45,625 bases of DNA from Tidjanibacter sp. Lineage in GTDB: Bacteria > Bacteroidota > Bacteroidia > Bacteroidales > Rikenellaceae. Below the pieces are notes generated by a model. The model was not told the DNA's origin and made no database searches. It saw nothing but the letters and a program-made list of their open reading frames with translations. A program made the position numbers and the translations under genes. Within the stretch, counting starts at the first letter, position 1, and every line of letters starts with the position of its first letter. Below, in pieces: positions 9,623 to 38,125 of this stretch. The DNA lies in contig JAFPBB010000072.1 in the NCBI GenBank assembly GCA_017390585.1, positions 1-45,625 of the forward strand, in the 5' to 3' direction.

Positions 9623-9729
9623 GCAATTATTTTCTAACAACACACTTCCAATTGTAGGAATATCTATCCAAAAGGTTGAATAGCGGAGAAGAGCGGAAAA
9701 ACATTGAGCCATATTCCAAAAAAAATTTC

Positions 9730-9737
9730 TACATTTG
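9730..9737 (+). promoter_or_regulatory. -7 element for the acyl-ACP thioesterase gene
   Basis: TACATTTG at 9730-9737 is a perfect -7 match; TTG at 9704-9706 is 23 bp upstream, slightly far. The leader would be about 38 nt. This rules out the in-frame TTG at 9704 as a start and supports the ATG at 9782. Confidence 0.65.
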
Positions 9738-9781
9738 AGCGTCGAAACATTGTTACTATCCAAATAAAACAAGATGACCAA

Positions 9782-10528
9782 ATGGTAGAAAAATTCAACG
9801 CCGACTACATCATCCCCTGCTACGACACCGACCTCAATATGGTGCTCAAGCCCGCAGCCTTCCTCAATATGGCACAAGAGGCTGCCAACCACCACGCCGA
9901 CTACCTCGGAGTGGGCTACGACACCCTCGAGGAGACCAAACAGGCGTGGGTAATGTCGCGTATGCGCGTTATTTTCGAGCGCCTGCCCCGATGGAGGGAG
10001 AGGGTCAACCTGAAGAGTTGGCACAAGGGTGCCGCAGGTTTTATGTTCCTGCGCGACTTCATCCTCACCGACGCCGAGGGCAACAACCTCATCAGGGCCA
10101 CCACATCGTGGTTGGTGATTGATATGACCACGCGACGCCTCGCCCGCCGAGGTGCTTTTGCGGAGTTTGCCGCCGACAGCCAGAAGGTCATCCCCGAGAG
10201 CAGCATTGAGGAGCCCGCAGGCAAAGTTGTGCTGCCCGAGGGTGCCGAGGTTGTGCGCCGCGAGAGCCACACCGCCTCCTACTCCGACCTCGATATGAAC
10301 CGCCACGTCAACAACGTGCAGTATGTGGTGTGGGCAATGGACCTCGTAGGTCTGGCTACCACCTCGGAGCGCCCGCTGAGGGAGTTGGAGATCAATTTCA
10401 ACACAGAGGTGAGGCCCGAGGATGTCGTGGAGCTCACTCTCTACTCCACCCCCGAGGCTCCAGGCACCTACTATGTCGATGGCAAGGTGGAGGGCAAGAA
10501 CTCCTTCATCATCCGCTTGGAGTTCTAA
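9782..10528 (+). CDS. Acyl-ACP thioesterase
   Basis: This 248-residue protein is of the FatA/FatB-like acyl-ACP thioesterase family with two hotdog domains. The N-terminal hotdog shows YIIPCYDTDLNMVLKPAAF and a central KSWHKGAAGFMFLRDF region. The second hotdog begins RRESHTASYSDLDMNRHVNN, where the conserved Asn and His of MNRHVNN are the usual catalytic residues. The enzyme releases free fatty acids from acyl carrier protein in the cytoplasm. The start at 9782 follows a perfect -7 element and gives a normal family length. It stands alone, with a strong terminator downstream. Confidence 0.93.
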   Translation: MVEKFNADYIIPCYDTDLNMVLKPAAFLNMAQEAANHHADYLGVGYDTLEETKQAWVMSRMRVIFERLPRWRERVNLKSWHKGAAGFMFLRDFILTDAEGNNLIRATTSWLVIDMTTRRLARRGAFAEFAADSQKVIPESSIEEPAGKVVLPEGAEVVRRESHTASYSDLDMNRHVNNVQYVVWAMDLVGLATTSERPLRELEINFNTEVRPEDVVELTLYSTPEAPGTYYVDGKVEGKNSFIIRLEF

Positions 10529-10549
10529 TTGCTCGGCACGCTAATAACA

Positions 10550-10591
10550 ATGCCCCATTCCGACGATTCGGGATGGGGCATTTCTTTTTTT
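10550..10591 (+). terminator. Rho-independent terminator after thioesterase
   Basis: ATGCCCCATTCCG (10550-10562) pairs with CGGGATGGGGCAT (10569-10581), with one G-U pair, around a 6-nt loop. A T-rich run (TTTCTTTTTTTT) extends to about 10591. The opposite-strand WG gene ends nearby at 10617 and may use the same stem. Confidence 0.93.
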
Positions 10592-10616
10592 TCAGTCACA
10601 CCGCAGCGCGGGGGCA

Positions 10617-12059
10617 CTAATCGCGTCGTTCACGGGCACGATGGAAGGTGGTGTCGATATAGTAGCGATGGCCATTGATGCCCACCAGCGCCACTCCGCC
10701 GTGGAATCCGTAGGCCTCCTCATAGATAAAATCCGACATTCGGGCTCCACCCACCGAGAAGTAGCCATACTTCACTCCTCTCCTTGCCACAACAAAGCCC
10801 TCCGAAGCGTCGCCCATCCAATCGCACGCCACCGACGAGAGTTGGTGTCCCACGCGGTCGTAGATGTGCCAATGGCCACACTCGTTCTCTGCCACGACCA
10901 CGCCCTCCTCGGCATACCACTCGAGGTGGGACCACACGTCATTCATAACCACCCCACCATTCTCATCAATCAGTCCATAACCCGAGGCTGTGCGAATCAC
11001 GGCGCGCCCGAGCTCGAAATCATAGGCGGCAAGCAGACGTCGTTCCACCCTCAAGGGCCTTCCTTCGAGGTCGGCATAACCCCAATAGGCACCCTGACGA
11101 TAGCGCACAAAGTGGTCACCTGCGGGTACCACCTCGTCGCAGTGGGCAAACGACACCCTCATAGAGTCCTCGGGTTCCTGTCGACAGCCCAAATCGATGT
11201 CGTTCCACTCGTCACTCTTGCGTAGCAGCACCTCGAGTTGGGGCAACGGACGGAAAGGTGCCATCCACACTCCGCGTATGCAGTGAACAAGTCGCTCCTC
11301 GGAGGCACCCATAAGGAGCGCATAGGCAAGCGAAGCCAACGCAGCGCAACCGTGGTGTTCGGCGGCAGTGTGGATGGCCCTCAGGCGCTCGGCACGCTCC
11401 TCGTCGCTGCTGCTCGAGACCGAGAGGAGTCGGCTTGCGGGGATGTCACACCCTCCCACATAGAGCAGCAGGGCCGCCATTGCGAGTTGGCGCACATCGC
11501 TCTTCGGATTGGAGGGCAGGGAGATGGGATAGTCGAGAATCCTCAAGTCGCCGCTGGAGTCGAAACATATCGAATGGCGCCCCAAGGCACCGTGGTGGAT
11601 ACGACGCTGGCAAAAGAGCTCCAGACTCTCCTCAATGCTCCCGATGGCACGACGCAGTTTGCCTCGCTCGGCGATGGAGCAGTGGCGACGGACGAACTCA
11701 TCTAAAGGGGTGTGGCATCTTTGGAGCAACGCATCGTGGGGAAAGAGAGTGCCGTGGCTGTTGCGGACATTGAGCAGGTTGGTCATAAACTTGGCCTCGG
11801 CGAGCTGTGCCACACTCTCCGACTCAAAGATTCTCATCCGTATCAGATTGGTGGGAAGAGCGAAGTGAGCCGAGGAGGGGATGGAGAGAATCCACTCATC
11901 CTTGCCGTCGGAGAGCCTCACCCTGACACACTCACCCGCAACCCGAAGCGACTCGCGGGGTCCGTCGCCCACCCTCACCAAGGGGCCGAGTTCGCCACTC
12001 GGGTGGCACACCTCCTCAACAGCATCGAGGTAGGCATAGGTTGGAATCAAAATGCTCAT
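10617..12059 (-). CDS. Degenerate kinase domain fused to WG repeats
   Basis: This 480-residue protein is the last gene of a kinase/vWA/WG set. The C-terminal part (about residues 314-470) is a run of WG-type beta repeats (AYWGYADLEGRPL, GYGLIDENGGVV, KYGYFSVGGARM). The middle (about 60-270) reads like a protein kinase lobe that has lost its catalytic residues: HHGALGRHSICFDSSG (155-170) stands where HRDLKPxN is expected, and ILDYP replaces the DFG motif, followed by KSDVRQLAMAALLLYVGG like a kinase C-lobe helix. It is therefore probably a pseudokinase. The ATG at 12059 lies two bases past the vWA stop codon; a TTG at 12065 is less likely. Role inferred: scaffold or sensor in the same pathway. 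Confidence 0.8.
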   Translation of the reverse strand: MSILIPTYAYLDAVEEVCHPSGELGPLVRVGDGPRESLRVAGECVRVRLSDGKDEWILSIPSSAHFALPTNLIRMRIFESESVAQLAEAKFMTNLLNVRNSHGTLFPHDALLQRCHTPLDEFVRRHCSIAERGKLRRAIGSIEESLELFCQRRIHHGALGRHSICFDSSGDLRILDYPISLPSNPKSDVRQLAMAALLLYVGGCDIPASRLLSVSSSSDEERAERLRAIHTAAEHHGCAALASLAYALLMGASEERLVHCIRGVWMAPFRPLPQLEVLLRKSDEWNDIDLGCRQEPEDSMRVSFAHCDEVVPAGDHFVRYRQGAYWGYADLEGRPLRVERRLLAAYDFELGRAVIRTASGYGLIDENGGVVMNDVWSHLEWYAEEGVVVAENECGHWHIYDRVGHQLSSVACDWMGDASEGFVVARRGVKYGYFSVGGARMSDFIYEEAYGFHGGVALVGINGHRYYIDTTFHRARERRD

Positions 12060-12061
12060 CG

Positions 12062-12907
12062 TCAAATAATCCTATCGGTGGTGAGTGAGCCAATGGCCAG
12101 CAACGACACCACCTCGTCGATGGGAGCATTGTAGCAAATGGCCCTATATGGTGGCTGCCCACCCGCAAACTCCCCTATCTCACGATTGTAGACCTCGGGC
12201 AGAGTGCTGGAGATGTCGTAGAGGAGTCGGGCATAGCGACTTGCGGGCACAGCTGCGGACTCCGAGGGGAAACACATCACACTCTCGGCAGAGTCGTGAC
12301 CGGTGGCAATGTGGATATTCATCAGTAGCACATTGCCATCGGAGGTGCCCACCTCGCAGAGCGACTTGGCAAGCTGACGGATTTTGTCGTGGGAGGCATC
12401 GGAGGCCTCACCATCGGAGATATTTATCACAATGGGCGGGAAGCTCTCGGGGTGTTTACTGCACCACCACGAGGTGAGTCGTTTTGCCATCTTGAGGGCC
12501 TTGCCCATTGGGGTGCGTCCGTTGGATTGGGGCGCAATCCACTCGCGCGATTCGACTATGGTGGAGAGTTTGCGGCCATCGGGGAGGGTGCGAGTTATGA
12601 ATCGTCGGCGAGTGCTGCGATACATTTGGTCCACCTCTGCAATGCTTTTCCAACTCCTGCCGAGCATAGAGACCGCCTCGGTGCCACTATAACCAACAAT
12701 GGCAATGTCGAAATAGTCGCCCACAAAGTGTTCCTTTTGGCAACGGCTGATAATCTCCTCCACGAGGCTATTGACCACATTGGCCAGGGCCTGAGCCTTG
12801 CTCTCCTCGCGTCCCTCGAAGATGATGGTCTCGGCCATCGAGCCGGAGAGGTCGAGGAGCAGAAGTATGGCACCTTTACGGGAGCGTGTAATCTGCGAAG
12901 TATACAT
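12062..12907 (-). CDS. von Willebrand factor A domain protein
   Basis: This 281-residue cytoplasmic protein has no signal peptide and carries a vWA domain with an intact metal-ion-dependent adhesion site: DLSGS (D19, S21, S23), T132 in GRTPMGKAL, and D165 in INISDGEASD. Such domains bind partner proteins through a Mg2+ ion. The start overlaps the upstream kinase gene by about 32 bp, and the stop lies two bases before the WG gene, so translation of the three is probably coupled. TerY-type vWA proteins work with a kinase and a PP2C phosphatase; the kinase is here, but no phosphatase gene is. Function in this organism is unknown. Confidence 0.88.
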   Translation of the reverse strand: MYTSQITRSRKGAILLLLDLSGSMAETIIFEGREESKAQALANVVNSLVEEIISRCQKEHFVGDYFDIAIVGYSGTEAVSMLGRSWKSIAEVDQMYRSTRRRFITRTLPDGRKLSTIVESREWIAPQSNGRTPMGKALKMAKRLTSWWCSKHPESFPPIVINISDGEASDASHDKIRQLAKSLCEVGTSDGNVLLMNIHIATGHDSAESVMCFPSESAAVPASRYARLLYDISSTLPEVYNREIGEFAGGQPPYRAICYNAPIDEVVSLLAIGSLTTDRII

Positions 12908-13754
12908 TCAGATGGGCTATATGATTGTGCAGTTCGGGTATTCGGTAGTCGTTGCCATTGAGTGCCAACAGGAGGGCGGTGAGATCCGCATTCTCTGCAA
13001 AGAGCTCCGCCAGCAACTCTCCGTAGCCCTCCGAGGGGTGGGCAACAAGCACCCTCTCCTCTGGGAGATTGGCACACAGAATGTGGGCCGCCAAGGAGGT
13101 GGCAATCAGCGCAATGGCATAGTCGTCGATGTGGGAATCGTAGGCATCGCCACGTGAGGGATGGTTGTAGATGGGCGTGCCTGCGTGGCCCCGGTGGGGA
13201 AGAGAGGGATGGTAGAGCGAATCGCAATCGATGAGTCGTTGCGAACCGTCGGGAAGGCAGAGTATGTTTTCGGGCTTGAGGTCGCCGTGGCGCCACTCGG
13301 CCTCGAGAATGGAGAGCGCCAGCGAAAGAAATCCTCTGAGATAGGCAAGCAGGCTGCCTCGACGGCCGTTGTGGATGGCCCTGCGGCACTCCCAATCGAG
13401 TTGCCCTCCCTCAATCCAGGGATAGAGAGCCACATCAATGTAGCACTTACCCACATAGAGTTCTTGGGGCAGAAAGCGTGGTTTGACCCACACCTCGTCG
13501 GGAAACGAGGCAAGCAGATTGTGGATAGTCTCGCCAAAAGGCTGGGGCGAAGAGTAGCACTTCATAGCCGTCTCGGGATCGTTGTAGCTGCGCGTACCAC
13601 CAATGCGTACGGGCACAACCACACCCTCGCGTCCGGCAACAAAACAGATTCTCGAACCTCTTTTGCGGCTCGGCTCCCACCCACTCAACGTGCGGAAGAG
13701 GCCTTCGCCAAAAAAGAAAGAGTCTATGATATCTCCAATCAACACTTTAGCCAT
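12876..13754 (-). CDS. Serine/threonine protein kinase-like protein
   Basis: This 292-residue cytoplasmic protein has the core of a eukaryotic-like protein kinase. AMKCY (K65) matches the ATP-anchoring lysine strand. HGDLKPEN (156-163) gives the catalytic Asp158, Lys160 and Asn163. LIDCD (174-178) stands in place of DFG and keeps the metal-binding Asp176, and GTPIYNHPS resembles the APE region. A glycine-rich loop is not obvious and the C-lobe is short. It looks catalytically competent, unlike the WG protein downstream. It overlaps the vWA gene by about 32 bp and lies 29 nt after the DUF4293 gene, so it may be read from the same transcript. Confidence 0.82.
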   Translation of the reverse strand: MAKVLIGDIIDSFFFGEGLFRTLSGWEPSRKRGSRICFVAGREGVVVPVRIGGTRSYNDPETAMKCYSSPQPFGETIHNLLASFPDEVWVKPRFLPQELYVGKCYIDVALYPWIEGGQLDWECRRAIHNGRRGSLLAYLRGFLSLALSILEAEWRHGDLKPENILCLPDGSQRLIDCDSLYHPSLPHRGHAGTPIYNHPSRGDAYDSHIDDYAIALIATSLAAHILCANLPEERVLVAHPSEGYGELLAELFAENADLTALLLALNGNDYRIPELHNHIAHLNVYFADYTLP

Positions 13755-13783
13755 AACGCAAAAGTGGACTATATGTTTCTCTC

Positions 13784-14218
13784 CTATCGGATGCGATCAA
13801 GCGAACGTACCAGGTGCTCGTCCTTGACGATGGCCCTGATTGCAAGCAGGGTCAGAATGATGGCCACAATGGGGAAGAAAGTGGGAGTCTCAATGGAGGT
13901 GGCAACAATGGTACCCGCAGCCTCCACCTGCTTGGTAAAACCAACGGCATACCAAGCCGCGAATGCCTGTGTGCCCACAAGCACCACCAACTCCGCACAC
14001 AGCAGCCTCACCTGCAACATTCGGTTCCTAAAGAGCCAAATAACCACGAAGGGAAGCAGGGCTGAGAGAGCAAAGAGAGAGCCCACCCACCAGAAGTCGA
14101 AGGCCACAAGCCTACCCTCCACACCGTCGGCCATATAGGAGGCCATAGGCACGAAGCACAAAGCGGTCATAAAGCCCACCACGGCGAGCAGATAGAGTGT
14201 CTGTATACGTTGTAACAT
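13784..14218 (-). CDS. DUF4293-family membrane protein
   Basis: This 144-residue protein has four hydrophobic helices and the characteristic start MLQRIQTLYLLAVV of the Bacteroidota-specific DUF4293 family. Its function is unknown. It lies on the same strand as the GT2 gene upstream (54 nt gap) and the kinase gene downstream (29 nt gap), so it is likely part of the long co-directional run. No promoter match is visible in either gap. Confidence 0.88.
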   Translation of the reverse strand: MLQRIQTLYLLAVVGFMTALCFVPMASYMADGVEGRLVAFDFWWVGSLFALSALLPFVVIWLFRNRMLQVRLLCAELVVLVGTQAFAAWYAVGFTKQVEAAGTIVATSIETPTFFPIVAIILTLLAIRAIVKDEHLVRSLDRIR

Positions 14219-14272
14219 AGTCTTATTCAGTTTCTTTGGTTAACAGATTCATATTATCTTTTTCACCCTCAC

Positions 14273-15202
14273 CTACTTCTCCTCGTCGATGAAGTAGTGG
14301 TTGCGCTCGGGAGCGTTGCGATTGATGAGTTCGCCGAGGAAGCCCGCCAGAAACAGCATCACACCGAGCACGATAGCCACAAGGCCGAGGTAGAAGAGAG
14401 GTTGGTTGGTCAGGGGGCGGCCAATGGTGAACTTCTCCACCACAATCCACAGGGTGGAGATGAAGCCCACAAGAAACATCAACGTGCCCGCACCACCGAA
14501 GAAATACATAGGTGAGCGGCCATATTTCGACACAAACATCACCGTCACGAGGTCCAGATACCCCCTCAAAAGCCTCTCCCAGCCATATTTGGAGACTCCA
14601 TAGCGGCGGGCATAGTGGGTCACCTCCTTCTCACCAATGCGCCCAAAACCGGCTTTCTTGGCGAGAATGGGGATGTAGCGGTGCATCTCACCGTAGACCT
14701 CAATGCTCTTGACCACCTTCTTGCGGTAGGCCTTCAGGCCACAGTTGAAGTCGTGGAGCTTGATGCCCGAGACCCTGCGGCAGGTGGCATTGAAGAGTTT
14801 GCTGGGGAGAGTCTTGGCCTTGGGATCGTGGCGACGTCGCTTCCATCCCGAGACCATATCGTAGCCCTCCTCTGTAATCATCCTATAGAGGGCAGGGATC
14901 TCGTCGGGCGAGTCCTGAAGGTCGGCATCCATAGTGATGACCACATCGCCCTCGGCCCTCTCAAAGCCACAGTAGAGCGCAGCACTCTTGCCATAGTTGG
15001 AGCGGAAGCGCACACCGCGCACCCTCGCGTCCTGCGCCGCAAGAGATTCCACAATGCTCCACGAGCCGTCTGTGCTGCCGTCATCAATGAAGATGACCTC
15101 ATACGACAAGCCCTCGGCACCAACCACACGCTCGATCCAAGCGTAGAGTTCACCAAGCGACTCCTCCTCGTTGAGCAGAGGTATGACAATACTCAGGTCC
15201 AT
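14273..15202 (-). CDS. Family 2 glycosyltransferase, polyprenyl-phosphate type
   Basis: This 309-residue glycosyltransferase has a GT-A domain (about residues 1-225): LSIVIPLLNEEESLGEL at the start, IDDGSTDGSW for nucleotide binding, and MDADLQDSPDE as the DxD-type metal site. Two C-terminal transmembrane helices (about 230-256 and 270-293) follow. This layout matches DpmA/GtrB/ArnC-like enzymes that move a sugar onto polyprenyl phosphate at the inner membrane. The sugar cannot be told. The DUF4199 gene lies 8 nt upstream, so the two are cotranscribed, as is common in this phylum. Confidence 0.92.
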   Translation of the reverse strand: MDLSIVIPLLNEEESLGELYAWIERVVGAEGLSYEVIFIDDGSTDGSWSIVESLAAQDARVRGVRFRSNYGKSAALYCGFERAEGDVVITMDADLQDSPDEIPALYRMITEEGYDMVSGWKRRRHDPKAKTLPSKLFNATCRRVSGIKLHDFNCGLKAYRKKVVKSIEVYGEMHRYIPILAKKAGFGRIGEKEVTHYARRYGVSKYGWERLLRGYLDLVTVMFVSKYGRSPMYFFGGAGTLMFLVGFISTLWIVVEKFTIGRPLTNQPLFYLGLVAIVLGVMLFLAGFLGELINRNAPERNHYFIDEEK

Positions 15203-15210
15203 AGTTGGGT

Positions 15211-15792
15211 CTACTCAGTGGGTTGACCATTGTTGGTGTTGGCAAAGATGTCGGGGCGGCGACGCACCAAAAGGCCCACGCAGAGGCCCACAATAACACC
15301 AAAGAAAGAGTGGCTAATAACCGACGAACCGGTGTGAATAAAGGGGTTGGTCACAGACGACCTCATCATCTGATAGGTCTTTTCGAAGCTCTCGGCGGGC
15401 ACCACATCCTGCATCTGGGCCATCACTTCATCGACACCCTGAAGCAACTCGGCTTTCATAAAGAAGTTGGCATTCACAGCCGAGTAGACACCACTCAGCA
15501 CTCCCACAAAGATCATCATCGCCACAACGAAGCCCACAGCCCTACCCACGGAGAAACCCTCCTCGGCGCTGTGCATAGCGGCAAAGCGACGGGTGTAGCC
15601 AAAGAGCAACAGGATGGTCACCACTGTCGATGCAATGCTGAGAAGATTAACCAGCGTGGTCGAATCGCCACAAACCACTGTAACAATCGAGAAAGCCACA
15701 CTCACCAGACCCACAACGGTACCACCCTTGAGGGCCTCAAGCCAAAAGTTCCTTTTCATATCTTCAATTCTTTTTTTTAATTTGTTGTCCAT
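15211..15792 (-). CDS. DUF4199-family membrane protein
   Basis: This 193-residue protein has four hydrophobic helices: two near the N-terminus, one in the middle (VGFVVAMMIFVGVLSGV) and one at the C-terminus (FFGVIVGLCVGLLV). A soluble segment of about 60 residues lies between the last two. It matches the DUF4199 family, often found beside a GT2 gene in Bacteroidota. No function is known. It lies 8 nt before the GT2 start and 39 nt after the YciO-like gene. Confidence 0.88.
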   Translation of the reverse strand: MDNKLKKRIEDMKRNFWLEALKGGTVVGLVSVAFSIVTVVCGDSTTLVNLLSIASTVVTILLLFGYTRRFAAMHSAEEGFSVGRAVGFVVAMMIFVGVLSGVYSAVNANFFMKAELLQGVDEVMAQMQDVVPAESFEKTYQMMRSSVTNPFIHTGSSVISHSFFGVIVGLCVGLLVRRRPDIFANTNNGQPTE

Positions 15793-15831
15793 TTGATTGA
15801 TTTGTCATCCCTTTTCGCACATTGCGGCTCG

Positions 15832-16440
15832 CTACTTAAGTTCACCGCCGCCCTCACGCAAAATTTCCGGCTCGTCGCCAGTGAGGTCCACCAACGTTGT
15901 GGGCACCAGCGAACCATAGCCGCCATCGATGACCACATCGACCAGCGAGTCATAGCGTTCGGCAATGAGTTCGGGATCGGTGGTGTACTCCACCACCTCG
16001 TCGTCGTCCTTAACCGAGGTCGTAGCCAGGGGAAAATCGAGCATCGCCACCAGTGCGAGGGGAATATTGTTGTCGGGAATCCTCACGCCCACACTCCTGC
16101 GACCCGAGAGAGCCTTGTCGGGCACCTTACTCGAAGCCTCCAATATGAACGTAAAGGGGCCTGGGGTATTGCGTTTGAGAATCTTGAATTGCTGATTGTC
16201 GATGCGGGCGAATTTGTCGACCATAGAGATGTCGGAGCAGACGATGGAGAGGAGTTTTTCCTGCTTACCCGAGATTGCGCGCAACTTTTCCACGCCCTTT
16301 GCGCTGCGCAACGAACACCCAAAAGCATAGACACCATCGGTGGGATAAATAATTACACCATCGTTCTTGAGTAGCTTCACCACCCTCTCCAGCTCTCGCT
16401 CCGAGGGATTCTGCTCGTAGAGTTTAACTGTCTTTGCCAT
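15832..16440 (-). CDS. Sua5/YciO/YrdC-family protein
   Basis: This 202-residue cytoplasmic protein is of the YrdC fold. Visible family segments are IIYPTDGVYAFGCSL, a KRNTPGPFTFIL stretch, SVGVRIPDN and PLATTSV. TsaC/Sua5 members make threonylcarbamoyl-adenylate from Thr, bicarbonate and ATP for the tRNA t6A modification. The KRNTPGPFT form is closer to YciO-type paralogues, so the exact activity is uncertain. The C-terminus ends in LVDLTGDEPEILREGGG, typical of the family. It is the first gene of the minus-strand run, and no clear promoter was found between it and the SRP RNA. Confidence 0.88.
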   Translation of the reverse strand: MAKTVKLYEQNPSERELERVVKLLKNDGVIIYPTDGVYAFGCSLRSAKGVEKLRAISGKQEKLLSIVCSDISMVDKFARIDNQQFKILKRNTPGPFTFILEASSKVPDKALSGRRSVGVRIPDNNIPLALVAMLDFPLATTSVKDDDEVVEYTTDPELIAERYDSLVDVVIDGGYGSLVPTTLVDLTGDEPEILREGGGELK

Positions 16441-27361: not shown

Positions 27362-28414
27362 CTATTGGGCCAGATATTTGTAGTCCACAGATTCTCCGAG
27401 CTCACACGCTGCCACATTGTTGACATAGCCGTTCTCGGTGATTGCCAGAGCCACAATGGTCATATCCTCCACCTTCCACTCGTCGGGCAGGGTGTAGGTG
27501 TAGCTCTTCACGCCCTCCTGCTCGGCAGCCAAGCTACCCAGCGACTCGCCCTTGTAGTTGGAGTTGACAAGTGCGCGGACAACGTGCTGATGGTTGAACT
27601 CGGCGTGGGTAATGGAGCCATCCTTCTGGGGTGCGATAATGTCATCCTCAACGAGGTAGACGCTCACCGAATATTTGCCTGCAAGCTCTGCAAAAAGGCT
27701 CACATCCATCTTCAACTCCCTGCCACTCAATGTGCTCTCGATCTTCACGTCGCACTGTGCGGGGAAATCATCAATCGAACGGTTGAACGAGGGGACAATG
27801 TCGCCCACGTTATCCGAGAGGCTGCCTGCATCCCTCAGATCGGTGACGAACGAGGGGAAGCCTACCAAGCGGAAGTCGTTGAGAATCTGCGAGGTCAAGG
27901 CCAGACCCATAGGGTCCTCACCCTGAGTATTGTCGTGCAAAGCAAGCATATGCACAATATCCCTCCACTCCTTCTTGTCCACAAAGTATTTGAGTTTGGT
28001 CATTCCATCGGGGCAGAAGGTACACCAAGCGCCGGTGAGGTCCATCACGCAGATGTGGCGTTCGAAGCGACTCTCGTGGCCTCCCACAGGCTCGGTGGCG
28101 GTGATCTTCACCTCCTCCGAAGCTTGGTCTTTGTAGATGGCCTGGAAAACATACTCACCCACCTCGGTGGTGGTAAAAGGGTTGCCGCTCCAGCTCAGCT
28201 CGGGGTGGCTGATAATGTAGATCTGTGCCTCGTGGGTCACATTGGAGGCACCATAGAGCACCTCGAACCTGACGCTCTGCTCGCCATCGGCAACGATGGT
28301 TGTGGCGCTGGGAACGAGGCTCACCTTCACCTCGCCATCGTCGCTCTGACCGTGGCAGCCCGCAAAGCCGAAGGTAAGGGCAGCCAAAAGAGCAATTTTC
28401 TGAATAAGTTTCAT
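27362..28414 (-). CDS. Omp28-like lipoprotein with thioredoxin-type CxxC (copy A)
   Basis: This 350-residue lipoprotein (signal ending FGFAGC, Cys20) has an N-terminal Ig-like beta domain (about 30-108) and a thioredoxin-like domain with the CxxC pair in LTGAWCTFCPDG (C131, C134). A C-terminal beta region (about 225-345) ends in ACELGESVDYKYLAQ. This order matches the Omp28-related family of Bacteroidota, named after a Porphyromonas outer-membrane protein. The CxxC suggests thiol-disulfide activity in the periplasm or at the cell surface, which has not been shown for the family as far as I know. Two related copies lie directly upstream in the same operon. Confidence 0.85.
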   Translation of the reverse strand: MKLIQKIALLAALTFGFAGCHGQSDDGEVKVSLVPSATTIVADGEQSVRFEVLYGASNVTHEAQIYIISHPELSWSGNPFTTTEVGEYVFQAIYKDQASEEVKITATEPVGGHESRFERHICVMDLTGAWCTFCPDGMTKLKYFVDKKEWRDIVHMLALHDNTQGEDPMGLALTSQILNDFRLVGFPSFVTDLRDAGSLSDNVGDIVPSFNRSIDDFPAQCDVKIESTLSGRELKMDVSLFAELAGKYSVSVYLVEDDIIAPQKDGSITHAEFNHQHVVRALVNSNYKGESLGSLAAEQEGVKSYTYTLPDEWKVEDMTIVALAITENGYVNNVAACELGESVDYKYLAQ

Positions 28415-28448
28415 AAGTATTTATCTATGCTATTATCTACAAATTTCA

Positions 28449-29582
28449 CTAAACATCCAGATGCTCATAGTCAGCCGACTCGCCAATCTTACACTCGGCG
28501 CAGTTGTTGACAACATAGGTGTTGCCACCGTCGTAGCTCACAAAGGCTGCAACGATAACCCTCATATTCTCAGCCACGCACTCATAGGGAATCTCCATCT
28601 CGCGTGTGGCAATAGTCTCAACACCCACCTGCACGGGTACGCCGTCGTTCATAACAGCGCCATAGACATTCTCCGACGAGGTAGCCCTCAGCACATTGTT
28701 GTGCTCATAGAGGCCGCTATAACCCTCCTGCACATCCATCACCTTATCCTCTACGAGGAAGATCTGGTAGCGATAGGTTGCGGGGATATTGGAGGTCACC
28801 TTTGCAGTGATGGTGGTCTTACCACCCTCCACGGGGCTACTCTCCACAGCCACACCGCAAGTGGCGGGATACTCCTGCTGCACCAACTCGAGAATCTCCA
28901 CGATTTCACCAAGACCGGAAACGGTGATGTAGTCGTCGTCGATGATGAGGTTGGCGTTGAATTGGGGCAGACCCTGACGTTTAATCTGCTTGTAGTAGGC
29001 AGCGGTCATAGGGTGGGTCATATCGTCTACGTTGTTGAAGTTCTGGTGGAACGACACAACCGACAGAGCGATGGGACCGGGCAACTGATCCTTCACCACC
29101 TTGAGGTTGGTGCTCAACGTGGGGCAGTTCACACAGCCGGTGGAGGTGAACTGGAGGCCGAGGATGCGCTGCACATAGAGAGCCTGTGTGCCACCGCTCT
29201 GTGCGGGCACAACAGTCACGGTCACATAGTTGTCCGATTTATGCTTCACGCCGTCGCGGAAGAACTCTGCGCGGAAGGTGTAGGTCGCCGCCACAACGCT
29301 CGAGAAGGTCGAGATACCATACTGCATATAGGTCTCCTTACCCTCGTAGGCGCGCACGAGCTGGAGGGTCTTAGCGGTGCTAACATCCTCCTGACCGAAC
29401 ATAATGCGGAAGTTCACGACATCGCTACCATTGGCAACAATTTCGCTCTTGTCGGCAAAGATGCGGAGCACGCCATCGGGCACCACATCGTCGCCCTCGT
29501 CGCTCTGACCGTGGCACGAACCGAGCATCAACGATGCTGCAACCACGGCCGCCAAAGCGAGATACTTGAAGATTTTTTTCAT
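28449..29582 (-). CDS. Omp28-like lipoprotein with CxxC (copy B)
   Basis: This 377-residue lipoprotein (signal ending MLGSC, Cys23) has the same layout as its neighbours: an Ig-like N-domain (about 36-126), a thioredoxin-like domain with FTSTGCVNCPT (C150, C153), and a C-terminal beta domain ending CAECKIGESADYEHLDV. Unlike copies A and C it lacks the usual Trp before the first Cys, so its redox behaviour may differ. The shared beginning after the lipid Cys (CHGQSD) and the shared ending with copy A point to tandem duplication. Gap to copy A is 34 nt. Confidence 0.83.
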   Translation of the reverse strand: MKKIFKYLALAAVVAASLMLGSCHGQSDEGDDVVPDGVLRIFADKSEIVANGSDVVNFRIMFGQEDVSTAKTLQLVRAYEGKETYMQYGISTFSSVVAATYTFRAEFFRDGVKHKSDNYVTVTVVPAQSGGTQALYVQRILGLQFTSTGCVNCPTLSTNLKVVKDQLPGPIALSVVSFHQNFNNVDDMTHPMTAAYYKQIKRQGLPQFNANLIIDDDYITVSGLGEIVEILELVQQEYPATCGVAVESSPVEGGKTTITAKVTSNIPATYRYQIFLVEDKVMDVQEGYSGLYEHNNVLRATSSENVYGAVMNDGVPVQVGVETIATREMEIPYECVAENMRVIVAAFVSYDGGNTYVVNNCAECKIGESADYEHLDV

Positions 29583-29632
29583 CTCTTACTATCTACAAAT
29601 CAACTATTTATTCTTTTCTCAAAGAGTTTCGA

Positions 29633-30745
29633 TTAGTTGTACTGATAGTCGGCAGTTTTGCCAATAGCGCAAGTGTTTGCGTTGTCTACCATACTAACGC
29701 CGGCAGCGTTGCTATGTGCAAACACTACGACCTTGTAGTTGGAGGGGTTGAAAGATACGCTCACGCCCTTGAAAGGATCCACCTTGAACTCAAAAGTCTT
29801 GGTGAACTCCTCGCCTGCCTTGAGCTCCACTGCGGTAGCCTCGTCGAGGGTGATGTAGTTGCTCGAAACGGCAGCCACAACATCGTTGTAGATGCTCTCG
29901 GTACCGTTCTGGCTGGGCTGATTGTCGGCCAAAACTGCATAGCCGAGGTCGAATTTGCCATCCTTCGAAGCTGCAACCGAAGCGGTGATAACGGTGTTAC
30001 CCTGACCATCCATAGTTGCCTCGGAGATCTTCACGCCACAAGTTGCGGGATAGTTCAACATCTGACCCTCGATGGTGCTGTTGAGAATCGACTCACTGCG
30101 CTGACCGCTACCGAATGCCATATCATACACAGCATAGGGATAGCCGGCACCGCCAAAGTTAACGCACATATACGAACCCAAGTCATAGTTCTGCCTATTG
30201 GGCCAAGGAAGTGCATAATCGTCATCTGCGTGAACAGCCATAACAATAACATTGTTGCCGTTGACGCCTTCGCGGAGCAGTTTGAGGCCCTTGGTCATAT
30301 CGGGGCAGTAGCCACACCAAGTTGCGGTGAGCTGGTAGACGCACACCTTGTGGACATATTTCTCATACTTGGCACGGTTCTGCGAGGTGAAGGTTACCTG
30401 ATTCTGGGTCTTCTTACCGCGAACGGTAGCATAGAAGGTGTACTCACTGTCGCGGATGGCTGCGAAGGTTTTGGTGCCCTTCTCCAAACGTTTGTCGGAC
30501 TTGGCATCAACAAAGTATACATACTTGAAGGTGCTTGCATCGAGGGTAACATCGTTACCGTTCTCATCAAGCACGCTGAAGGTCACGCAATCAACGCCGT
30601 CTGCCTCAATGGTCTGTTTGTCGGCTACGATAGTGTAGGAAGCACCGCTGGGCTCGGGCTCAGGATCATCGGTGGAATTAGAGCTACCACAAGCCACAAG
30701 GGCGAGAGTAGCAAAAGTTGCGAAAAGGAATTTGTTGAATTTCAT
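29633..30745 (-). CDS. Omp28-like lipoprotein with CxxC (copy C)
   Basis: This 370-residue lipoprotein (signal ending LALVAC, Cys19) has an acidic linker (DDPEPEPS), an Ig-like domain (about 37-122) and a thioredoxin-like domain with the motif LTATWCGYCPDM (C144, C147). A C-terminal beta region ends NTCAIGKTADYQYN, matching the ends of copies A and B. The WCGYC motif is the most classical of the three. It lies 47 nt downstream of the DUF6029-like barrel gene on the same strand. It probably exchanges thiols or disulfides in the envelope; partner unknown. Confidence 0.85.
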   Translation of the reverse strand: MKFNKFLFATFATLALVACGSSNSTDDPEPEPSGASYTIVADKQTIEADGVDCVTFSVLDENGNDVTLDASTFKYVYFVDAKSDKRLEKGTKTFAAIRDSEYTFYATVRGKKTQNQVTFTSQNRAKYEKYVHKVCVYQLTATWCGYCPDMTKGLKLLREGVNGNNVIVMAVHADDDYALPWPNRQNYDLGSYMCVNFGGAGYPYAVYDMAFGSGQRSESILNSTIEGQMLNYPATCGVKISEATMDGQGNTVITASVAASKDGKFDLGYAVLADNQPSQNGTESIYNDVVAAVSSNYITLDEATAVELKAGEEFTKTFEFKVDPFKGVSVSFNPSNYKVVVFAHSNAAGVSMVDNANTCAIGKTADYQYN

Positions 30746-30792
30746 AATTAATAATATTAAATATAGGTATTGTTAATTCTGTTTTGTATCGC

Positions 30793-32406
30793 TTAGAACG
30801 AGGTCGAAACAACGAGGTTACCACCTGTGTAGGCGGGCATCAAGCGGCATACGCCACCCGAGCACACCATACCTGCACGGTTGCGGCCATAGCTGAGTGC
30901 CACGCGGGTGCGACCTGCGGTGTAGCTGAAGCCAGCGTTGTAGTAGTGGATTTTGGTGTCGCCGTGGTTGAACATATCGCTCACAAAGAGGCTCCACGAG
31001 GGGGCAAAGTTCACCTCCACGAGGCCCGACATCCAATCCTTCTGATCCTCGAAGGTCGTCAGGTAGGCCAACTCCATACGGGTGGAGAAGGAGGGAGTGA
31101 ACTTATAGAGCAGGTCGGCCACAACCATATTGGAGAGCCAAGTACCCTTGCCCACGCCGTGGGAGTGGTTGTACTCCTGCATTGCATAGAGGAGCTGCAT
31201 CTTGAACTTCTTGGAGATCTGTTTCTCCACACCCACATTGACATTGCGCCACAAGAGGGTCTTGGGCATAAAGGAGCCCTCCTCCTTAAGGTTGTAGTAG
31301 GTCGAGAAGTTGAAGTTGACCTTCATACCCCTCCTACCGCCAAGGGCAGTGCCACGACGGAAGTTGTAGTAGACATCGAGCTGACCACCAATCTCACCAC
31401 TATTGATGTGACCGGCTGTGGTACCGGGCTGGGGAATGTAGGGGTTGAGGTTGGTGATGGCATAGGAGTACTGCGCGCACAAAGCAGGGAGGTAGTTGAG
31501 CGCATTGTTGGTCTCGGTGGAGCCGTAGGATACTTTCGACTCCATCCACTCCATACGACGGGCCGAGAGGTTCACACCCAAGCCGCCACCGCTGTAGGAC
31601 ATCTCCAGAAGCTGTGCATTGCCATTTTTGATGAGGTTGGATTTGCCGTCGATGAGGATGTTGGGGTTGGAGTAGATTTTCTTGCCGCCATCGATATACT
31701 CGGCCTTCACAAGGAAGCCGTTGTGCTCAAAATTCACACGCGCCGAGTAGCCCAGAGTGGAAGCCTCGGCACCTGCCTCCTCCTGGATGGGGTTGACAGG
31801 CTCATAGCGATTGAGCAGCGAACCCTCGAGCGAGAGGCTTGTAGCCCCCATACCGAGCAGATTGGAGAGCGAGAGCGAGCCATCCACACCCCTCACCTGG
31901 GTCTCCTTGGCGGGTTCCATACCCAAGCGGGGAGCACCCCAGAGGGCTTTGATGGAGGCGATGTCCTTGTAGTGGTAGGAGACACGCGCACCCATAAGTG
32001 CGGTGTTCATACCGAGGGTGCGGTCCTCGTAGGTGCGGAAGAGGATGCCGCTACCGAATTGGTCGTAGAAGGTACCTGCCGTCACGGCAAAGTCGCCATC
32101 GGTCCACTGCATATAGTAGTTGGTGAGCTTTGCGCCCTCGAGGTTACCGGGGTAGCCAACCAGCGCGGGCTGGTAGGTCTCGAGCTGCAAGCCGGCCGAG
32201 AAGCCTCCTGCATAGTAGTCGGCCTTGAGGTAGTTGTTCGATGCGAAGTTACCATCAGGACGCTGTGCATTGGTCACCGCATCCTCCGAGTAGAGGATGG
32301 TGTTGCTCTCAAAGGAGCCAACAAGATAGCCCTTGCCGTCACCCTGCGCCCAAGCGGAGATGAGCGAGAGGGAAGAGAGCAAGATTGCCGTCAGAATTCG
32401 TTTCAT
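30793..32406 (-). CDS. DUF6029-like outer membrane beta-barrel (copy 1)
   Basis: This 537-residue protein has a Sec signal peptide (residues 1-20, cleavage after AWA) and is otherwise made of alternating beta strands ending in Phe (NLVVSTSF), as expected of an outer-membrane barrel. FYDQFGSGILFRTYEDRTLGMN (about residues 116-137, given here in part as QFGSGILFRTYEDR) is a conserved signature. The last strands carry GMVCSGGVCR (C515, C520). A close paralogue at 36490-38094 keeps the same signature and the same Cys pair. It sits between a TlpA-like thioredoxin gene and three CxxC lipoprotein genes. Family assignment is from memory of DUF6029; transport role is not known. Confidence 0.8.
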   Translation of the reverse strand: MKRILTAILLSSLSLISAWAQGDGKGYLVGSFESNTILYSEDAVTNAQRPDGNFASNNYLKADYYAGGFSAGLQLETYQPALVGYPGNLEGAKLTNYYMQWTDGDFAVTAGTFYDQFGSGILFRTYEDRTLGMNTALMGARVSYHYKDIASIKALWGAPRLGMEPAKETQVRGVDGSLSLSNLLGMGATSLSLEGSLLNRYEPVNPIQEEAGAEASTLGYSARVNFEHNGFLVKAEYIDGGKKIYSNPNILIDGKSNLIKNGNAQLLEMSYSGGGLGVNLSARRMEWMESKVSYGSTETNNALNYLPALCAQYSYAITNLNPYIPQPGTTAGHINSGEIGGQLDVYYNFRRGTALGGRRGMKVNFNFSTYYNLKEEGSFMPKTLLWRNVNVGVEKQISKKFKMQLLYAMQEYNHSHGVGKGTWLSNMVVADLLYKFTPSFSTRMELAYLTTFEDQKDWMSGLVEVNFAPSWSLFVSDMFNHGDTKIHYYNAGFSYTAGRTRVALSYGRNRAGMVCSGGVCRLMPAYTGGNLVVSTSF

Positions 32407-32954: not shown

Positions 32955-33374
32955 AGTTGAAAAGTGTTTTAAGAATTATACTAATTTTATGTTCATTTTT
33001 TCCATCTTCAATTACCCATTCCGCCGCCATTTGAGGTACCTCCCACCTCCCCGACAACAGTTAAGCAATTTGGGGACAAAGATAGAAATTTCTATTGCTC
33101 CTGCAAACAATTCCACTTGTTTTTATAAATTTATTTATAACACCCCCCGACGGCCGTTTCGCGTCATCTTCGGCGCCACATTCCACCCCAAACCCTCCAC
33201 ACCTCCACACAAAGCACTACAAAAATAGAGGGGACCGATGTCAAAAAACGGACAAAAAGTTAGGTAAAACGAGGGAAAATCCATATATTGCCGCCGCAAA
33301 ATTGCCTCAAAAGGGCAAAGTGTCAATGTAACCGCAATAACAAACATAACTAACCAATTATTTTACAACATTTT
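32955..33374. other. Divergent intergenic region between two envelope operons
   Basis: This 420-nt gap separates the minus-strand TlpA operon from the plus-strand 995-residue lipoprotein gene. It holds a clear minus-strand promoter (33077-33107) and a long leader for tlpA. No perfect TAnnTTTG was found for the plus strand; the nearest is TAAATTTA at 33126-33133, with no -33 at the right distance. The stretch 33140-33320 is C-rich then A-rich with no gene or strong hairpin seen. Confidence 0.6.
33077..33107 (-). promoter_or_regulatory. Promoter of the TlpA / DUF6029 / Omp28 operon
   Basis: On the minus strand, TTTG (33107-33104) and TATCTTTG (33084-33077) are separated by 19 bp, a full match to the -33/-7 consensus. 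The leader to the tlpA ATG is about 115 nt. It is the only full promoter match found for the six co-directional genes down to 24967. Confidence 0.85.
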
Positions 33375-36362
33375 ATGAAAAAATTTTTCCGTTTTGCGAC
33401 GCTCCTCACCAGCGTTGTCGCAATGGTAATCGCGGGCTGTACCCCCACTCCCCCCGAACCCCCCGTACCCACCGACCCCTTTGAGGGAGCATCGCTCTCC
33501 ATCAAACTCGTGGGCGCCGACATCAACACAGCAACCGTGGCTGTGAATGCAGAGGTTATCAAAATTGCCGGCTACATCATCGCCCCCGCAAGCGAGGAGA
33601 CCACAGCACCCACTCCCGCAGAGATTTTCGAGAAAGGTACCCTCGTTGCTCTCGAGGCGGAGGCCGACACACAGGTGACTTTCCGCAACCTTGAGGCCGA
33701 CACCAGGTATGACGTATATTTTGCAGGCCGAATCACCGCCGACAAGGTGTGGAGCGAGGTTAAGAGCTTCTCGTTCAAGACCGCCGCAGAGCCTGTCATT
33801 CCCGTTCTGACCGCCAAACTCATCGGCACCGATGCCACCTCCGCAGAGATTCAGCTCTACGCCGAGAACATCTCGCGCATCGCCTATGTTGCCACCGCAG
33901 TTGAGGATTCGTCGGTTGCTCCCGAGGCTCCCAAGTTGCAGGTGATCTTCGCAACCGGTAAGACCGCAGAGCTCGTTCAGGGTGACAACACTCTTATCGT
34001 GAAGAACCTTCTTCCCAAGACCGACTACGTAGTATTCATCGCAGCCGAAATCGCCGGCATCGAGGAGTATATGGAGGAGGTTGTGGTTGTTAAGCACATC
34101 CGCACCACCGACTTCGCCGACGACATCAACGTGCGCGACATCAACTACCGCGGTTTCACCGTTGACGTGAGGGTTGATCCCCGAGTTAAGGAGCAGAACC
34201 ATATGATCAAATGGGCCACCGCCGACCTCTTTATGTACAATATGAACTCTGTGAGCGATTTTGACTACGCAATGATGAACCTCCACGACAATGCTTGGGG
34301 CGGTATGAACCTCTTCAACGAGAGCCGCTCGCTCATCATCGACGAGGAGCACAGCTACCTCTACGGTCCCGATGGTCAGATCGAGAACTGGTACTATGAG
34401 TCGATCGTTCCCGGTCAGCCCCAGGTAGTCATCTTCGGCGAGTTTGCCCGTGGCGAGAGCCAGTGGGGCTGGGGCTACGGCTACTACAAGCCTATGTTCG
34501 ACGCTCAGCAGTATATGATCGACCAGAGCGAGAACCCCAACGAGAGGCTCGACGAGGCTCCCTATTGGAGCGGCTTCTACCAGCACCTCGACGTTCAGGT
34601 TCAGAAACCCGAGCCCATCTCGGAGGACCTCATCAACGTGGAGATTGAGAAATTCCCCGACGATGCTCTGATCAAAATCTCGGCCGACAAGTCGATTGAC
34701 CTCGTTTCTGTGATGGTTATGAGTGAACTCGAGTACAACTCGGCTATGCAGTATATCAAACCCGAGCACCTCCAGTGGTTCAGCACCTCGCTGATGGGTG
34801 CATACCAGGGTGTTTCGATGCAGGTTGACCCCTGGGGTGAGGGTATGCAGGGTTCGCTGATGACCGCCATCAGCCAGTTCCTGCTCGACATCCCCCGCGA
34901 GTCGAAATTCTGGGTGTACGTTGTAGGTATGCGTGGCGACTTCAACGGCGACGGCTACCTCGATGGCAACGAGCAGGTATGCGAGGCCTATGAGTTCTAC
35001 CTGCCCCAGCCCACCAAACCCGCTCCCGAGATTGTGGTTACCGCACTGGAGTCCACCTCGCCCTTCGAGGTTAGCTTCAATGTGAAGTGCCCCACCAAGG
35101 ACGCCTACCGCGGCTGCTCGATTTCCAACTACGAGAAAGAGTGGTTGATGACCGGTATGAGCGGCGCAGAACTTCTGGAGGCCTACGGCGAATACTTCGC
35201 ATTCAGCTCCGTGGAGCTCGCACGCATCAACTCCGACGAGGGTCTGACCGTTACCTACCCCTCGCGTCCCAATGAGAACAACTACTTCGCAGCTATGGTT
35301 GCCAACGACGAGGGTACCGAGACCTACTCGGAGACCGTCATCGCAAGGTCGCTCAGCGAGCCCGCTAAACCCGCAGTTGACAGCGCACTCTTCGAGAGCC
35401 TCCAGGGTGAGTGGACCGCAAGCGCCAGAGTTACCTACTCGCTCTACAACGAGGAGACCGAGCAGTACGACGTCTTCAACGAGACCCAGAGCTGCCCCGT
35501 AACCATCGGCAACTTCGAGTATCCCGAGCAGCTCACCGAGGAGGATTATGCAACCTTCCAGCGCCACGGTGTGAGCCGCGAAACGGCCGACGTATACTAC
35601 GCCGAGTTCAAGGCTGCTGCCAAGACCTTCATCGACAACACCCGCGCACAGAACCGCATCCTGATGAATGGTTTCAACTTCAGCGGCGAGCTTGAGCCCT
35701 ACTATGCATACGCAGATCCCTACAGCCTCTTCACTTCCGACACCTACAACGGCTACACCAGCGAGATGCCCATCTACGACTTCGGTCCCAAGTGGTATCT
35801 TGAGGTTGCTGCCGACGGCACCGTTACCGCTCCCTTCAACGTGAACTACTTCACTCCTATGTCGAGCTGGTACACCACCTCGCAGGCAATCTATGAGTCG
35901 CACTTCATCGCCTACGAGCCCACCACCGGCACCACCGCTGGTTATATGGGCGATGCTGAGGGTAACGCAGTGAACGGTCAGTTCCCCGTGGAGGTTTCCG
36001 AGGATGGCAACACCATCACCGTTAAACCCTTCGAGTACAGCGGCCTCAACTTCTATCCCAACTCGGCTATCTACTTCGGTAGCGGTCAGTATCAGCTGGG
36101 CGTGAAGGTTGTATCGGAGATCACCCTCACCCGCAACACCGCAGCCACCGAAACTCCTGCCAAGGCTATCCGCAAGAGCGGCAAGCTCGAGCGCGAGCGC
36201 ATCCAGTCCGCTCAGGAGATCAAGACTCCCGCACGTCCCGCAAGCCGCGCCGCATTCGGCCCCGTGAAGGAGTACAAGAAGGTGGAGAGCACTATGAACC
36301 TCACCAAAGAGCAGAGGGGCAAAGAGTGGTTTGAGACTCGTCGCAACGCCGGCCGTCGCTAA
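33375..36362 (+). CDS. Very large lipoprotein with beta repeats and an EF-hand-like loop
   Basis: This 995-residue lipoprotein has a signal ending VIAGC (Cys22) and a Pro-rich linker (TPTPPEPPVPTDP). Two fibronectin-like segments follow (about 38-137 and 143-245, ending in DTRYDVYFAGRI and KTDYVVFIAAEI). Further on, GDFNGDGYLDGNE (about residue 520) has the spacing of an EF-hand/dockerin calcium-binding loop. The C-terminal 70 residues are strongly basic (KAIRKSGKLERERIQSA, then RRNAGRR). No enzyme motif is recognised. It heads a plus-strand group with a DUF6029-like barrel and an Omp28-like lipoprotein. Probably surface-exposed; function unknown. Confidence 0.78.
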   Translation: MKKFFRFATLLTSVVAMVIAGCTPTPPEPPVPTDPFEGASLSIKLVGADINTATVAVNAEVIKIAGYIIAPASEETTAPTPAEIFEKGTLVALEAEADTQVTFRNLEADTRYDVYFAGRITADKVWSEVKSFSFKTAAEPVIPVLTAKLIGTDATSAEIQLYAENISRIAYVATAVEDSSVAPEAPKLQVIFATGKTAELVQGDNTLIVKNLLPKTDYVVFIAAEIAGIEEYMEEVVVVKHIRTTDFADDINVRDINYRGFTVDVRVDPRVKEQNHMIKWATADLFMYNMNSVSDFDYAMMNLHDNAWGGMNLFNESRSLIIDEEHSYLYGPDGQIENWYYESIVPGQPQVVIFGEFARGESQWGWGYGYYKPMFDAQQYMIDQSENPNERLDEAPYWSGFYQHLDVQVQKPEPISEDLINVEIEKFPDDALIKISADKSIDLVSVMVMSELEYNSAMQYIKPEHLQWFSTSLMGAYQGVSMQVDPWGEGMQGSLMTAISQFLLDIPRESKFWVYVVGMRGDFNGDGYLDGNEQVCEAYEFYLPQPTKPAPEIVVTALESTSPFEVSFNVKCPTKDAYRGCSISNYEKEWLMTGMSGAELLEAYGEYFAFSSVELARINSDEGLTVTYPSRPNENNYFAAMVANDEGTETYSETVIARSLSEPAKPAVDSALFESLQGEWTASARVTYSLYNEETEQYDVFNETQSCPVTIGNFEYPEQLTEEDYATFQRHGVSRETADVYYAEFKAAAKTFIDNTRAQNRILMNGFNFSGELEPYYAYADPYSLFTSDTYNGYTSEMPIYDFGPKWYLEVAADGTVTAPFNVNYFTPMSSWYTTSQAIYESHFIAYEPTTGTTAGYMGDAEGNAVNGQFPVEVSEDGNTITVKPFEYSGLNFYPNSAIYFGSGQYQLGVKVVSEITLTRNTAATETPAKAIRKSGKLERERIQSAQEIKTPARPASRAAFGPVKEYKKVESTMNLTKEQRGKEWFETRRNAGRR

Positions 36363-36390
36363 ACCGCTATAGCTCAACGACTAACAACCC

Positions 36391-38094: not shown

Positions 38095-38125
38095 TGAAAC
38101 ATAACCAATAATGATAGAAAAAGTG

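Follow-up and report, generated by a model that had tools for sequence, protein, structure and literature searches.

A kinase homologue lacking catalytic residues stands at the phosphatase position of a TerY-P-like gene set in the Rikenellaceae

How might a phosphorylation switch be arranged when its gene set holds a kinase and no phosphatase? This question is raised by a three-gene operon on the minus strand of a 45,625-nucleotide stretch of DNA from Tidjanibacter sp. (contig JAFPBB010000072.1 of assembly GCA_017390585.1; hereafter the window). The first gene, K1 (12876-13754), encodes a 292-aa Ser/Thr kinase that resembles the kinases of TerY-P sets, is apparently active and carries the motifs HGDLKPEN and LIDCD. 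The second (12062-12907) encodes a 281-aa TerY-type von Willebrand factor A (vWA) protein with a complete metal ion-dependent adhesion site (MIDAS; DLSGS at residues 19-23, T132 and D165), and the third, K2 (10617-12059 from an ATG, or 10617-12065 from an alternative TTG start), encodes a predicted pseudokinase, a homologue of K1, with WG repeats at about residues 320-478. A sequence-only reading of the window had proposed that these genes form a variant of the TerY-P triad of vWA protein, PP2C phosphatase and kinase, with the WG pseudokinase in place of the phosphatase, and that they could be a stress or defence set. Our preferred explanation, to which we give a probability of about one half, is that they form a phosphorylation module, nearly universal in the Rikenellaceae, made of TerY-P parts without PP2C and with a dead homologue of the module's own kinase instead.

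The open reading frame (ORF) coordinates agreed with the gene order given by the sequence-only reading, as did the motifs that it had named in the three proteins, including the degenerate kinase lobe followed by WG repeats in K2. The K1 and vWA genes overlap by 32 bp (12876-12907, minus strand), so that translational coupling is likely, and 2 nt separate the vWA stop codon (12062-12064) from the K2 ATG; from the TTG, K2 would overlap the vWA gene by 4 nt. The same reading had asked whether the order recurs among relatives, and K1, vWA and K2 stood together in 87 of 105 distinct Rikenellaceae loci rather than being scattered, which argues that the operon is not a chance arrangement. These loci remained from 136 after removal of identical vWA sequences, and they are not a random sample, consisting of the best 80 of 309 named matches plus loci picked to cover genera. 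At most 60 nt separated vWA from K2 in 75 of 76 loci (median 4). K1 and vWA overlapped by 8-46 nt in 11 of the 77 loci measured, each of them from the window's own genus.

A PP2C profile built from nine proteins of loci outside the family matched nowhere in the 105 family loci, which span 1523 kb and in 82 cases extend 4 kb or more to either side, whereas it matched 15 of 18 outside-family loci, in all 15 directly behind the vWA gene and in the same orientation. A profile built without it still recovered each of the nine builders (worst E-value 2.2e-15). The outside set covers 14 of 18 outside genomes, and its 15 positive loci are not independent because several are close kin; no PP2C was found by the profile in outside loci L230, L233 and L238. 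In most of the outside loci read, the kinase comes further on behind the PP2C. With a single annotated plasmid PP2C as the query, 13 of the 18 outside loci were matched and no family locus, and the PP2C of outside locus L111 likewise had no match in the 105 family loci. A phosphatase concealed near the operon was rejected on these three PP2C searches. Since PP2C lies directly behind vWA outside the family and K2 lies there inside it (101 of 105 loci), K2 occupies the phosphatase position, which supports a new variant of the TerY-P triad. The proposed variant therefore stands as to its parts and their positions; that K2 also does the phosphatase's job is something we infer.

By its sequence, K2 is a pseudokinase homologous to K1. 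The K2 profile had GCN2 as its best PDB match (5.8e-6), with KSR1 and RNase L among further matches, and it aligned to the K1 profile at an E-value of 1.1e-65, partly via the WG repeats that most K1 relatives share. Window K2 carries HGALGRHS where K1 has HGDLKPEN, and ILDYP where K1 has LIDCD. In a joint K1/K2 alignment that omits sequences of 200 aa or less (99 K2 reduced to 97, 89 K1 to 87), the catalytic Asp was found in none of the 97 K2 sequences, being Asn in 58 and a gap in 4. The DFG Asp was present in 15 of 97, with Arg there in 50, and the activation segment (GTP..HP.R after DFG) was gapped in 95, as it was in the profile-profile alignment; the catalytic-loop His and Asn were kept in 87 and 69 sequences, respectively. 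Fewer than 90 residues separate the DFG position from the WG repeats in 55 of 97 K2, many of them from Alistipes, and 144 do so in window K2. About four WG-type motifs were counted in window K2 by a simple pattern, from about residue 320, and its match to the Pfam WG family PF14903 (E = 6.5e-5) scored 23.3 bits against a cut-off of 25.6. All 25 long K2 relatives in alignment A2, drawn from 76 K2 locatable in named loci, matched WG.

K2 is under purifying selection in all 14 close pairs, with a ratio of nonsynonymous to synonymous substitution rates (dN/dS) of 0.12-0.26, compared with 0.16-0.34 for K1; the pairs were the 14 closest by vWA, each locus being used once. Distances of K1, K2 and vWA correlated at 0.92-0.93 across 83 loci (a level reached in 0 of 500 permutations), and the three genes co-evolve. 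Two other explanations of K2 were rejected, a decaying gene by dN/dS and retention, and a chance ORF by conservation. In an unrooted tree of 91 kinase domains (39 K1 and 39 K2 from 39 chosen loci, and 13 from outside the family, with the partial outside kinase L109a omitted), all K2 formed one clade (support 100/99), the outside-family kinases formed another (99/90), and K1 formed one group except for the weakly placed row L108. Because the tree is unrooted, it shows a single origin of K2 and not its source.

The module is also widespread within the family. The window's source assembly is 1.75 Mb and 84.7% complete, and its host is a Rikenellaceae gut bacterium of the genus of Tidjanibacter metagenome-assembled genomes: the nearest vWA relatives (54-62% identity) came from such genomes of sheep, yak and water deer gut, and further relatives by name included Alistipes, Rikenella microfusus and Millionella. 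The vWA gene was present in 242 of 268 Rikenellaceae genomes, in 104 of the 110 good ones and in 22 of 22 genera; four genomes had two matches and all other carriers one. Six of 198 sampled genomes of the order carried it, two of them Rikenellaceae, leaving 4 of 196 in other families, and it was found in 19 of 392 genomes of a phylum sample (mostly at least 85% complete), the window's genome included. Among the matches listed for the K1 profile, kinase domains occurred in five sampled genomes of other families of the order (G067, G189, G077, G047 and G139), and the other outside-family matches were WG repeats or nearly so.

K1 and vWA were retained and lost together in a small test of 12 genomes chosen for departing from the pattern, five with vWA and without an adjacent K1, and seven of the 26 without vWA. 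All five of the former had K1 elsewhere in the genome (about 8 kb off in G457; in G332 the match was interrupted by a stop). None of the seven vWA-less genomes had an intact K1: G335 gave only a 113-residue N-terminal match, G206, G209 and G338 gave WG matches only, and G220, G371 and G443 gave nothing.

K1 itself looks, from its residues, like an active Ser/Thr kinase. Its profile had PKA as the best PDB match (9.7e-8), and the catalytic Asp and DFG Asp were kept in 83 and 86 of the 87 aligned K1, respectively. Window K1 matched the PADLOC STK_OB model at 5e-6, covering profile positions 139-227 of 562, and all 29 members of alignment A3 (window K1 plus 28 of 67 K1) matched it, the best at 2.2e-46; the Pfam Pkinase match of window K1 was weak (0.0032) and under its cut-off. 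WG repeats were found in 18 of the 29 K1 in A3, and since so many K1 carry them, WG generally belongs to the module; window K1 stops after the kinase domain and has none. The window vWA matched the PADLOC TerY model at 6.7e-48 over residues 2-274 of its 281, and the MIDAS was complete in 102 of the 105 family vWA proteins, two of the others being truncated at the start and one having a D-to-N change.

Several observations weigh against a conserved module of active kinase, vWA scaffold and dead kinase homologue. Eighteen of the 105 loci were cut or of another order: in 11 with K2 no kinase lay within 3.5 kb upstream despite at least 3 kb there, in three the contig ends, and of the remaining four, L121 and L195 had two kinases upstream, L120 had none, and L188 had none upstream and was cut downstream. 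The K1 of L091 and L186 have lost the catalytic Asp, and the vWA of L186 has also lost one MIDAS Asp; the other two Asp-less sequences assigned to K1 (L121 and L195) are probably K2 in loci of changed order. The beta-3 Lys of K1 aligned to Arg in 33 of 87 sequences, a change that would weaken a standard kinase and is odd for an active one. The unrooted tree is compatible both with a K2 derived from K1 and with a K2 of older origin, the window genes vWA, K2 and K1 are too distant from any relative for dN/dS, and PP2C_2 is matched somewhere in 42 of the 268 family genomes, where its product could act in trans.

The last of these points, together with the WG repeats shared by many K1, agrees with the alternative that survives best, namely that K2 is a WG-carrying adaptor or serves K1 as a substrate, that the absence of PP2C has nothing to do with it, and that an unlinked phosphatase resets the switch. 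We judge this rather unlikely. The other 226 genomes had no PP2C_2 match, and neither PP2C_2 (PF13672) nor SpoIIE (PF07228) was found in the window's genome, at its 84.7% completeness and with other phosphatase folds not searched. Moreover, the kinase-like N-terminal part of K2 is kept family-wide, though the part downstream of it is shortened in the 55 K2 mentioned above. Eight of the PP2C_2 places were read. Some Rikenellaceae carry a separate TerY-like set at such places, in which the PP2C lies next to another kind of vWA, about 235 aa long (seven places, L239-L244 and L246); the eighth, L245, lies about 20 kb from its genome's vWA.

In the module that we favour, the vWA metal site would hold K1 and K2 together, and K1 would phosphorylate the vWA protein, K2 or a target in the cell. 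Pseudokinases elsewhere restrain or activate kinases by binding, and by analogy K2 would restrain or activate K1 by binding, without phosphate hydrolysis. The WG repeats of K2, and of K1 in many genera, would read a ligand or partner, and reset would go via release or an unlinked phosphatase. A further gene accompanies the set in Alistipes and its kin: a gene with DUF4954 and DUF6819, predicted to form a left-handed beta-helix, lies just upstream of vWA in 43 of the 105 loci and sits between K1 and vWA where K1 is present (for example L122:6270-8000 and L092:6082-7803). Its product may be acted on by the module or work as its partner. In the window's genome this gene is unlinked, on another contig (G000:C40:7297-8502).

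A second alternative is that the operon is a genuine anti-phage defence system of the TerY-P-like kind. Both the vWA protein and the kinase match PADLOC TerY-P models, TerY-P has been reported active against T7-like phages (PMC7699616), and the window operon is inverted relative to its usual neighbours. The inversion concerns a block of genes for DUF4293, a glycosyltransferase, DUF4199 and Sua5 (window 9700-16440), which lies upstream of the operon on the same strand in the window and downstream on the opposite strand in the nine other loci with DUF4293. Against a defence role stand the presence of the set in nearly all genomes of one family, with two copies in four only, the co-evolution of its three genes, and its surroundings. 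The sequence-only reading had suggested a look for phage-defence or tellurite-type genes nearby; the neighbours scanned with Pfam instead look like housekeeping or envelope genes, and a PADLOC scan of 10 neighbouring window proteins gave no match. Besides the block, the window neighbours include an acyl-ACP thioesterase, chorismate synthase, SPFH proteins, an AMP-binding enzyme, a nitroreductase, outer-membrane Omp28 and DUF6029 genes and, judged by eye, a protein resembling a cation exchanger membrane protein. Across the family, trxB, rnz and gcvP recurred at similar distances in 52, 48 and 39 of the 105 loci, respectively, as counted by single-gene searches, BLAST clustering being confounded by opposite-strand ORFs in G+C-rich DNA. 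None of 50,697 phage records matched the vWA protein; of 72,556 plasmids two did, both cyanobacterial, one of which was examined and has an annotated PP2C behind vWA. The operon thus lacks the patchy distribution and the mobile or defence-island context of a defence system, and a defence island was rejected on the Pfam assignments of its housekeeping-like and envelope-like neighbours, the empty PADLOC scan of 10 of them and its near-universality in the family. The earlier suggestion of a stress or defence set is therefore not supported, and we regard an anti-phage system as improbable; the module's role is probably cell-physiological.

We consider it more improbable still that K2 is an enzyme of the set with a different catalysis, such as the AMP transfer performed by some "dead" kinases, for although K2 is under purifying selection and mostly retains the loop His and Asn, its DFG Asp is mostly lost, with Arg in its place in 50 of 97, its activation segment is gapped, and the short distance from DFG to WG in 55 of 97 sequences leaves little for a full C-lobe.

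Other features of the window were recorded alongside the operon. A terminator-like hairpin (10549-10582, plus strand) lies behind the convergent acyl-ACP thioesterase gene and adjoins the 3' end of K2; a promoter and terminator scan gave nothing above shuffled sequences, and hairpin-type sites were no more frequent than in shuffles. Two sets of Omp28 and DUF6029 genes lie in opposite orientation about 4 kb apart (27362-32406, minus strand, and 36490-39601, plus strand). Between them, at 33363-36377, ORFs of 1004 aa and 995 aa occupy opposite strands, and Pfam matched neither of the two at 0.001.

The module suggests that an anti-phage-type switch has been rebuilt into an ordinary inherited cell part in most sampled Rikenellaceae, and that defence-type signalling modules can enter core physiology. 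More tentatively, and with the odds somewhat against it, we propose that a Rikenellaceae ancestor turned a TerY-P defence-type switch into core physiology by trading its phosphatase for a dead kinase copy, with the vWA metal site as scaffold, WG as sensor and binding by K2 replacing hydrolysis by PP2C. On this proposal, a switch of writer and eraser would have turned into one of kinase and pseudokinase. Much work exists on animal pseudokinases and little on bacterial ones, and the Rikenellaceae, a family of common gut commensals (Alistipes, Rikenella and Tidjanibacter), retain a bacterial kinase side by side with its dead homologue. Related triads with a phosphatase in the same position provide a natural control, and with this system one could test directly if a pseudokinase is able to replace a phosphatase.

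Among known systems, the closest is TerY-P, which Anantharaman (2012) reportedly described as a triad of TerY vWA, PP2C phosphatase and Ser/Thr kinase, and for which Gao et al. (2020) reportedly described anti-phage defence. PMC11090510 and PMC4978471 define TerY-P as a TerY vWA, a PP2C and a kinase with a zinc ribbon or OB fold, and in these together with PMC7699616 it figures as a hypothesised metal-sensing phosphorylation switch with reported anti-phage activity. The Rikenellaceae operon resembles TerY-P in its TerY-type vWA with MIDAS, its homologous STK-type Ser/Thr kinase, which has a similar N-terminal motif by eye, and its compact gene set. It differs in having a pseudokinase instead of PP2C, in the C-terminus of the kinase, which among the K1 scanned bears WG repeats or nothing (nothing in window K1) rather than a zinc ribbon or OB fold, and in being near-universal in one family where TerY-P is scattered. 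Because the phosphatase and the kinase C-terminus do not correspond, we class the operon as a variant of the same parts and not as a member of TerY-P. As for the PADLOC TerY-P system with kinase-OB, vWA and K1 match its TerY and STK_OB models, but window K1 ends after the kinase domain, the phosphatase is absent, and the Rikenellaceae set shows no sign of mobility or defence context.

Locus L225, from another Bacteroidota genome (G710) of the same class, is similar in that a kinase with nine WG stretches lies close to a vWA of this type. It differs in that a PP2C-like protein lies directly behind vWA, no pseudokinase was seen, and the kinase is on the opposite strand; the PP2C-like protein matched the profile at 2.2e-15 when left out of it, had no Pfam match, and had PppA as a weak PDB match (0.16). 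L225 is a possible picture of an intermediate layout. Elsewhere in the Bacteroidales, TerY-type vWA proteins occur fused to a DarT ADP-ribosyltransferase or close to one, with PP2C behind (L109:7394-8857, L109:6710-7372 and L110:2614-4131), and L109 also encodes a leucine-rich-repeat kinase and a DUF6939 protein that matches NADAR weakly. In the open-licence literature, a scope outside which most subscription papers fall, we found no paper on the arrangement of K1, vWA and K2. A counterpart in design is found in kinase-pseudokinase pairs such as KSR-MEK, in which an active kinase has a degenerate kinase homologue as its partner. The Rikenellaceae pair, as predicted from sequence, follows the same plan; unlike KSR-MEK, it is bacterial and is tied to a vWA protein and WG repeats.

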